DNA of 64,000 bases from Sandaracinaceae bacterium (lineage in GTDB: Bacteria; Myxococcota_A; Polyangia; Polyangiales; Sandaracinaceae), in assembly GCA_019637095.1 (NCBI GenBank), contig JAHBWG010000039.1:1-64000 (forward strand). The letters run 5' to 3'. The position numbers were made by a program, and so were the translations under genes. How positions within the stretch are numbered: the stretch's first letter is position 1; every line of letters starts with the position of its first letter. Shown piece after piece: positions 12,772 to 39,925 of the stretch. The notes under the pieces were generated by a model that had not been told where the DNA came from, searched no databases, and saw only the letters and a list, made by a program, of their open reading frames with translations.

Positions 12772-12857
12772 GGGGACGATCCTCGTCATTTCGTCATTCC
12801 GCTCGCGTCGCAAGCGTGGCGCAAGCCGAGAGAGACGAAATGACGAGGATCGTCCCC
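12772..12857. repeat. Long perfect inverted repeat (24-bp arms), copy 1 of a dispersed palindromic element
   Basis: The arms at 12772-12795 and 12834-12857 are perfect reverse complements over 24 bases, beginning GGGGACGATCCTCGTCATTT and enclosing a 38-base loop. The element fills most of the space between two convergent genes. A closely related element lies at 39855-39925; the left arms of the two copies share 25 of 27 bases, and both start within eight bases of a stop codon. No T tract follows, so it does not look like a simple rho-independent terminator. It resembles REP/BIME or a miniature mobile palindrome. Confidence 0.85.
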
Positions 12858-37187: not shown

Positions 37188-37781
37188 GTGCGAGCCCGGC
37201 GCGAGCGCTCGATCCTCCTCGCCAACGGGCTGAGCCTGTCGCGCGTGCCGCTCGCCGCCGCCCTCTGGATCGCGCCGGACGTGCCCGCGTGGACGCTGTC
37301 GATCATCGCGGTCGCGGGCGTCACCGACGTGCTCGACGGCTGGGTCGTCCGCCGCGCGCGGCGCGAGGCGTGGGCCGGCGGGGACCCCGGCGCCTATGCG
37401 GCGCACGTCGCGCGCGGCGAGGTGATCGACGGGCTCGCCGACAAGATCTTCGTCGCCTCGGCCGTCCTCGCGCTGCTCGCGGTCGCGCACCCGCCGTGGT
37501 GGGCGCTCGGCGCGCTCGTCGCGCGCGAGCTCCTCTTGGTCCCTGCGCTGTCGATCTACCGCTTCCTCCCGGCGGCGCAGCGCGGCAAGGTCGACTTCAC
37601 CGCCGGCTACGCGGGCAAGGCGGCGACGTTCTTCCAGCTCGCCGGCCTCGTCGCGGGGTTCCTCGGCAGCGCGCTGTTCGTCCCCGCCGCGGTCCTCGCC
37701 GGCGCCCTCGGCGCGCTCGCCGCGATCCTCTACGTCGCGCGGGCCGCCCGCGCCGCGCGCCCGGCCGAGCCGAGCGCGTGA
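37188..37781 (+). CDS. CDP-alcohol phosphatidyltransferase
   Basis: A 197-residue membrane protein with the family motif DVLDGWVVRRARREA followed by a longer than usual spacer and GEVIDGLADK, providing the D-x2-D-G and G-x3-D-x3-D metal-binding residues. Four to five membrane segments are visible (for example LVARELLLVPALSIY and the C-terminal LGALAAILYVARA). It joins a CDP-activated lipid to an alcohol to make a phospholipid. The spacer between the two halves of the motif is about 20 residues longer than the canonical eight, so the substrate class is uncertain. Confidence 0.8.
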   Translation: MRARRERSILLANGLSLSRVPLAAALWIAPDVPAWTLSIIAVAGVTDVLDGWVVRRARREAWAGGDPGAYAAHVARGEVIDGLADKIFVASAVLALLAVAHPPWWALGALVARELLLVPALSIYRFLPAAQRGKVDFTAGYAGKAATFFQLAGLVAGFLGSALFVPAAVLAGALGALAAILYVARAARAARPAEPSA

Positions 37782-37796
37782 CGAGCGGCCGACGCC

Positions 37797-37835
37797 GCCA
37801 TCGAGACCAGCCCGTCGCGCAGCGACGGGCGTTGG
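37797..37835 (+). repeat. Covarying hairpin repeat, copy 1
   Basis: A 39-base unit with the hairpin CCCGTCGC-GCA-GCGACGGG in its centre. It matches the unit at 37903-37941 at 33 of 39 positions. Four of the six differences are two compensatory base-pair exchanges in the stem. Confidence 0.85.
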
Positions 37836-37844
37836 TCGAGGGGG

Positions 37845-37876
37845 CCCCATCGCCCCGCGATGGGGTCCGTTTTATG
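37845..37876 (+). terminator. Putative rho-independent terminator between the hairpin repeats
   Basis: CCCCATCGC (37845-37853) pairs perfectly with GCGATGGGG (37857-37865) around a CCC loop, followed by TCCGTTTTA. It would terminate the CDP-alcohol phosphatidyltransferase transcript. The stem core ATCGC-GCGAT resembles that of the neighbouring repeats. Confidence 0.65.
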
Positions 37877-37902
37877 GGGGAAAGTGGAACAACCCCTCCG
37901 AA

Positions 37903-37941
37903 GACATCGAGGCCAGGCCATCGCGCAGCGATGGCCGTTGG
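37903..37941 (+). repeat. Covarying hairpin repeat, copy 2
   Basis: This 39-base unit is a direct repeat of 37797-37835. Its stem is GCCATCGC-GCA-GCGATGGC: position 15/33 changes from C-G to G-C and position 18/30 from G-C to A-T, so the hairpin is preserved although the sequence differs. No coding frame explains the pair. Confidence 0.85.
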
Positions 37942-37971
37942 CGGGTCGAACGCGGCGCCCCTCCAGCAAGC

Positions 37972-38349
37972 TCAGTGGATCGCGTACGCGTGCTCGTGCA
38001 CCTCGCGGATCCGTCCCATCACGACGTGGAACGACATCAGCACGTGCTCGGCGCCCGCCGCGCGCGGGCCGTCGCCGCCGCTGCGCGTCGTCTCCACGAA
38101 GACGTGGTCCGCCGTGCCGTACGCCGTCTGCCCGAGGAAGCGGTAGCCGCCGGAGAACCGCTCGCGCACCGCCGCGAGCATGCGCCGAATCTCCGCCTGA
38201 CCGGTGTGCAGCCCCGCGTGTCCGAGCCACTGCGCCGCGCCCCACCGCGCGTCCTCTTCGAACCGCGTGAGGGCCGCGTCGAGATCGCCGCTCTGAATCG
38301 CCGCCAACGCCGACTCGACCACCTGGATGTTGCTCTGCGCCTGGTCCAT
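37972..38349 (-). CDS. SnoaL-like (NTF2-fold) protein
   Basis: About 125 residues from the ATG at 38349 with an AGGAGG site upstream. The pattern VVESALAAIQSGDLDAALTRFEEDARW followed by GQAEIRRMLAAVRERF and beta strands ending MGRIREVHEHAYAIH is that of SnoaL-like or ketosteroid-isomerase-type NTF2 folds. The catalytic residues of characterised enzymes are not obvious, so this may be a binding protein or an uncharacterised isomerase or hydrolase. It stands alone, divergent from the 38429 gene. Confidence 0.75.
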   Translation of the reverse strand: MDQAQSNIQVVESALAAIQSGDLDAALTRFEEDARWGAAQWLGHAGLHTGQAEIRRMLAAVRERFSGGYRFLGQTAYGTADHVFVETTRSGGDGPRAAGAEHVLMSFHVVMGRIREVHEHAYAIH

Positions 38350-39854: not shown

Positions 39855-39925
39855 GGGGACGATCCCCGTCATCTCGTCATTCGCGGGCTGGCCCCGACAA
39901 TGACGAGATGAAGAAGATCGTCCCC
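39855..39925. repeat. Inverted repeat (27-base arms, 3 mismatches), copy 2 of a dispersed palindromic element
   Basis: The arms at 39855-39881 and 39899-39925 pair at 24 of 27 positions around a 17-base loop. The left arm begins GGGGACGATCCCCGTCATCT and matches the left arm of the 12772-12857 element at 25 of 27 bases, while the loop sequences are unrelated and differ in length (17 versus 38). This conservation of arms but not loop points to a repeat family rather than coincidence. Confidence 0.85.

Follow-up and report, generated by a model that had tools for sequence, protein, structure and literature searches.

What is the repeated, foldable DNA that fills the space between two convergent genes in a myxobacterial genome, and what put it there? 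The window analysed here, a stretch of 64,000 nucleotides from a Sandaracinaceae bacterium (GCA_019637095.1, contig JAHBWG010000039.1, positions 1 to 64,000), contains a 190-nt intergenic gap (37782-37971) mostly occupied by a block of hairpins. The gap is bounded by a CDP-alcohol phosphatidyltransferase gene on the + strand (37188..37781; PF01066, E 1e-14) and, converging on it from the far side, a called gene for a SnoaL-like domain protein on the - strand (37972..38349; PF12680, E 9e-9), in whose 3' region the element lies. A preliminary description had recognised in this block two 39-base direct repeats with six differences, including two matched stem exchanges, all of which are borne out by the sequence and by folding. 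The repeats (37797-37835 and 37903-37941) exchange C-G for G-C at stem pair 15/33 and G-C for A-T at 18/30, and a third exchange lies just beyond the 39-mer, where position 10 changes from A to G and its partner, the next base outside, from T to C. Folded alone and compared with dinucleotide shuffles, the two 39-mer hairpins have z values of -4.2 and -2.8, the hairpin between them (37842-37868) of -3.7, and the whole block of -5.5.

The hairpin pair is not a chance product, since the pattern of its hairpin, which we call H1, has 117 matches in the 9.25-Mb genome at up to three mismatches and the reversed pattern has none. These matches, together with the additional paired changes found across the family (see below), dispel the concern that the pair might have no relatives and no further covariation. 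The two H1 copies of the window represent the two common stem types of the family, A (GGCCATCGC) and B (GCCCGTCGC), beside which rarer types are present (e.g., CCCTCGC/GCGAGGG and CTGTCGC/GCGACAG). Searched against the genome, the window block has similarity at 56 places (E < 0.001), usually over its bases 1-69 (H1 and the adjoining hairpin), and these 69 bases, in the distal unit of the window, share 90-99% identity with many copies in the genome. Such near-identical copies at unrelated loci suggest that the element has spread. Our genome survey was based on 864 kb plus targeted loci, the H1 pattern being matched over the full 9.25 Mb; of the 108 copies examined for position, 103 have a called gene on either side, four lie at contig or call edges, and one was called inside a gene.

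In its full form, the element measures ~165 nt and consists of five GC-rich hairpins followed by a tail. Read on the complement of the strand used in the preliminary description, it begins directly at a stop codon or a few bases 3' of one. The order in this direction is stop codon, a 7-nt spacer (GTCTTCG, GTTTGCG, GCTTGCC, or similar), H5 (GAGGGGYTGTTCCARCCCCTC or GAGGGGTGCTTCGCACCCCTC), H4 (CCCCATGCGGCAAAGCCGCATGGGG and variants), H3 (GAACGCGGCGGAGCCGCGTTC), H2 (CCCCATCGCGGGGCGATGGGG), H1, and a tail ending in about CTCGATCRATCGACAGTCTTCGAG. H5 is variable in sequence and lost or broken in some copies, that of the window among them. The length of the element differs by single bases among aligned copies, and near-perfect triloop palindromes occur on both of its strands. 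Alignment of copies of the five-hairpin element revealed no terminal inverted repeats. Neither GTAG nor CGTC is conserved at the foot of H1, H2, H4, or H5, and the CGTC beside H3 is variable among copies.

The window holds two damaged units of this element in tandem, covered by the only strong match of a whole-element covariance model in the window (37801-37974, - strand, 87 bits, E 9e-16). The gene-proximal unit (37907..37974, - strand) begins precisely at the TGA stop codon of the SnoaL-like gene (37972..37974, - strand, from the gene call; model offset 0) and is truncated, with a TGAGCTTGCTGGAGGGG start, a remnant of H3, and an H1 of type A (GGCCATCGC GCA GCGATGGCC, 37912..37942). The distal unit (37801..37905, - strand), within the same model match, has a broken H5, has lost H4 and H3, and retains H2 and an H1 of type B (GCCCGTCGC GCA GCGACGGGC, 37805..37837). 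Both H1 hairpins were delimited by folding and as members of the pattern. H2 (37842..37868), placed by folding and the element alignment, is the third hairpin of the preliminary description and is followed by CGTTTT on the + strand, a T-run that the family does not share (see the T-run test below). A remnant of the tail (37782..37800), which reads TGGCGGCGTCGGCCGCTCG on the - strand and matches the family tail TGGCGCCGTCGGCCGCGTGCG, ends at the stop codon of the convergent gene.

The position of the copies relative to genes, which adds polarity and stop-codon anchoring to what had been observed before, was established with genes called by a codon model trained on the 864 kb, copies oriented by H1, and tandem-array copies counted singly. 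All 103 classifiable copies lie between convergent (55) or tandem (48) genes, and in every one the gene next to H5 is directed towards the element. None occupies either of the other two settings, the divergent one included; if copies were placed and oriented at random in intergenic DNA, ~41% of them would be expected in the observed settings. Among 81 gene ends, the stop codon lies 7 nt from H5 at 46 and 6-8 nt from it at 64. A covariance-model scan of 864 kb not chosen for H1 yielded ten copies, all of them after a gene on the same strand and seven coinciding exactly with its stop codon, a coincidence to be read with caution because the model was built from TGA-anchored copies. The sequence at these gene ends is also biased: CTGAG is found at 58/77 element ends but at 122/680 genes (p 3e-24), CTGA at 70/77 compared with 252/680, and the base before the stop (position -4) is C in 91% of element genes compared with 40% overall, which points to a preference for a DNA target rather than to an RNA function. 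Since the upstream proteins end in plausible C-termini that look native, this C is probably older than the element. Where the neighbours are tandem genes, the interval from H1 to the following start codon is at least about 49 nt, which leaves room for a promoter and is consistent with a transcription unit ending there. As the copies adjoin stop codons of genes unrelated to one another and all face one way, the family is probably a DNA repeat that is spreading and shapes the message ends of these genes. A family so exactly coincident with stop codons raises the question of whether a mobile repeat recognises gene ends or whether selection places the copies.

The preliminary description took the retention of the hairpin through sequence change as a hallmark of selection on structure. 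Across 32 full copies, pairing is retained in 97.9% of 1651 cells, and 11 pairs have changed on both sides. The double-changed pair cells number 94, against 33.5 ± 4.5 after shuffling and 2-4 with slid partners, a figure that also counts relatedness, the two stem types being largely inherited as blocks. Two or three Watson-Crick types occur at four pairs among 108 H1 copies, and the position-10 pair, seat of the third exchange in the window, likewise varies family-wide (G-C 20, A-U 11). The paired changes themselves thus extend well beyond the window, but the argument for selection on structure is weakened because, according to PMC8794818, template switching in replication can create compensatory changes in palindromes without selection, and because the strand comparison of single changes (14 G-U versus 8 A-C cells) is weak once the loose pair 6/30 is set aside. 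Tandem units share one orientation, and one array (L014 8213-8552; G000:C13:93212-93551) comprises six direct-tandem H1 units with periods of 53-63 nt whose neighbours differ by both paired and unpaired stem changes. It may serve as a natural test of template switching.

Outside the source genome, the H1 pattern has no match in 56 relatives, and its sequence appears to be specific to the source lineage because the 13 stretches matching its core over GTDB contigs are, by eye, mostly coding or unrelated repeats. Among the latter, an unrelated GAGGGCCATGCCTTCGCGGAGCGAAGGCCGCAGAACC... repeat family occupies five places in one Kiritimatiellae genome (L101, L102, L108, L109). The whole-element covariance model matches seven of 145 genomes of the order, including the source genome. 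The other six are G005 and G008, which share a genus, G001 and G006, which share another, and G035 and G043, from two genera of a different family of the order; scores are weaker (38-42 bits) in G001, G006, and G043. The model has no match in the remaining 138, several genomes of the same family among them, so that any function of the element is dispensable in close relatives. The architecture nevertheless occurs with a different sequence in four other genera: the relatives' copies keep the order stop codon, spacer, GGAGGG hairpin, CCCTCCCCCC, H4, GGGGCCCCCC, H3, whereas the stems have diverged, and counterparts of H2 and H1 are clear in G005 and G008 and partial in G035. In relatives with a recognised gene end beside the first unit, most spacings measure 4-8 nt, the stop codon may be TGA, TAA, or TAG, and the spacer behind it is T-rich in several genera. 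In G008 the repeat similarity begins just past the stop codon, and several copies in G005 and G008 either form tandem units or lie away from any detected stop. When orthologous loci were compared for empty sites, G005 and G008 proved nearly identical and so provided no close empty site, and only gltA was informative across genera. One genus carries the element directly 3' of the gltA stop codon, whose position agrees with the gltA ends of relatives; in most other genomes of the same family this site is occupied by a hairpin trailed by T-rich sequence, and the stretch read in the source genome has neither. Behind gltA and its element in G005 there follows an extended series of imperfect GCTCGCTTCGCTGCGCTCGCTC-like repeats (L181 1302-1756), which are also present at other loci of that genus.

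A mobilising enzyme was sought among the eight Y1-type genes of the source genome, which comprise three IS200-type and five RAYT-like genes. Mobilisation by a RAYT in cis was rejected, as no strong model match to the element was present beside RAYT-like genes in 32 loci of the source and related genomes (best E 0.02). The IS200-type genes (L045 1459-1893, L046 1471-1899, and L047) include two with equal scores, and one such gene (G000:C132) lies less than 1 kb from an element copy. No transposase was evident on reading the proteins encoded between neighbouring element copies. The window contains a second, separate repeat (12772-12857 and 39855-39925), in which GGGGACGATCCTCGTCATTTCGTCATTC faces its own inverted copy. 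In the source genome, GGGGACGATCCTCGTCATTTCGTCATTC also forms the terminal inverted repeats (~1543 and 2508-2529) around a RAYT-like Y1 transposase gene (L228, 1565-2458, - strand), and the arrangement resembles a TIRtron together with its family of MITEs.

Several explanations can be weighed against these observations. Of the candidates named in the preliminary description, a REP-type repeat is compatible with the data, and so is an RNA 3'-end element. Its TTTT after the third hairpin had also suggested a terminator. This suggestion is not supported, since a T-run follows the hairpin in only 3 of 81 element 3' ends, equal to the shuffled level (TTTT 3.7% versus 2.2%), and the window TTTT belongs to a degenerate copy. 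A classical intrinsic terminator was therefore rejected for the family and, despite the GC hairpin and CGTTTT on the + strand of the window and the T-tailed hairpins at gltA in most relatives, we regard an ordinary hairpin-and-T-run terminator as highly improbable, all the more because C-rich sequence follows the hairpins in the family-fixed orientation. Readthrough or a coding extension was also rejected because element lengths differ by single bases. The same variation, by which no readthrough frame is kept, argues against an element coupled to the stop codon in translation, with a hairpin 6-8 nt 3' of the stop contacting the terminating ribosome. The sharp 7-nt spacing and its recurrence across several genera, where the spacer is T-rich and each of the three stop codons is used, would suit such a device, yet the hairpin concerned, H5, is variable and lost or broken in some copies, also in the window, and we give this idea little credence. 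Also unlikely is a role as a protein-binding DNA palindrome, comparable to the enterobacterial BIMEs to which gyrase, IHF, or Pol I bind, and sited where convergent transcription builds up supercoils. The triloop palindromes on both strands, the 53% of copies between convergent genes, and the lack of a clear RNA-strand preference would be consistent with it; the 48 copies between tandem genes and the exact stop-codon spacing are not what a supercoil site would lead one to expect.

The element may, more plausibly though still with substantial doubt on our part, be purely selfish miniature mobile DNA, inserted by a transposase 3' of a short target (DCTGA in the source genome), with only the insertions behind stop codons surviving and RNA structure being irrelevant. 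Near-identical copies at unrelated loci, the CTGA and C-at-minus-4 biases inside apparently native coding ends, the onset of similarity just past the stop in G008, and the tandem copies all speak for it, and the fixed orientation would follow from a directional target. Against it, insertion would be expected at other intergenic targets, yet 0/103 copies are in other settings; one short target hardly accommodates TGA, TAA, and TAG in relatives; and no transposase is linked to the element. The explanation that we favour, with a probability of roughly one half, is a composite REP/BIME-like repeat that spreads in the 3' untranslated regions of genes and acts as mRNA 3' end. Classical hairpin-and-T terminators are scarce genome-wide (7.8% versus 4.8% shuffled) and, with the T-run test at background in the element, its likely role is that of a folded 3' end blocking exonucleases, perhaps aiding termination by another route. 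Transcribed together with its upstream gene, the string of hairpins would fold behind the terminating ribosome and fix or protect the mRNA 3' end as a barrier to 3'-5' exonucleases, possibly also helping termination where hairpin-plus-T terminators are few, and copies would spread as non-autonomous DNA, through an enzyme or recombination, surviving only behind stop codons. In favour of this composite 3'-end repeat we count the 117 copies against 0 in the control, the polarity, the spacing, the double changes, the four-genus architecture, the native C-termini, gltA, and the gap of at least ~49 nt; against it, the weak strand counts, template switching (PMC8794818), the G005 copies away from stops, the bias to C at position -4, and the 138/145 genomes without a match. 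A broader and rather doubtful possibility is an undescribed multi-genus class of modular five-hairpin 3'-UTR cassettes, put or retained by selection right at stop codons of any type and coupling translation termination to mRNA 3'-end formation, whose sequence would turn over as lineage-specific families. The family provides more than 100 natural replicates for studying how high-GC bacteria with few hairpin-plus-T terminators form mRNA 3' ends.

Literature searches retrieved no description of this family and nothing relevant on such a repeat in myxobacteria. With Rfam families it shares structured non-coding sequence; in the window none reached its gathering score and nothing appeared at permissive thresholds, and the weak matches at loci with family members are at chance level. 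Like the bacterial MITEs RUP, ERIC, YPAL, and NEMIS (PMC3733652), which are 100-200 bp long, non-coding, intergenic, foldable, and able to affect neighbouring mRNAs, it is a small element, but it has five independent hairpins and an exact stop-codon placement, and no terminal inverted repeats were found in it. The TIRtrons and TIRYT-associated repeats (PMC3733652) resemble it as dispersed small repeats in a genome encoding several RAYT-like proteins; in contrast with them, the five-hairpin element has no terminal inverted repeats that we could see and flanks no transposase. Unlike a REPtron, it adjoins no RAYT gene examined. REP-like bacterial repeats are usually described as lying near gene ends. 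The closest likeness is to REP/BIME sequences, tagged by GTAG and CGTC (Di Nocera 2013, PMC3733652), with which the family shares more than 100 short extragenic GC palindromes located mostly behind convergent and unidirectional genes near 3' ends (none being divergent in our family), lineage-specific sequences, and tandem clusters. A further likeness is that REP termini with GTAG often supply a TAG stop codon (PMC3733652). Our family differs in having no conserved GTAG or CGTC tag, in a conserved start that abuts the stop codon, and in strictly one polarity. It has five different hairpins in fixed order where REP/BIME have one or two alternating units, and its tandem units do not alternate in orientation as those of BIMEs do. 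Because it combines this likeness with the lack of a conserved tag, of alternating units, and of a REPtron, we call the family REP/BIME-like rather than filing it as a member of REP/BIME.
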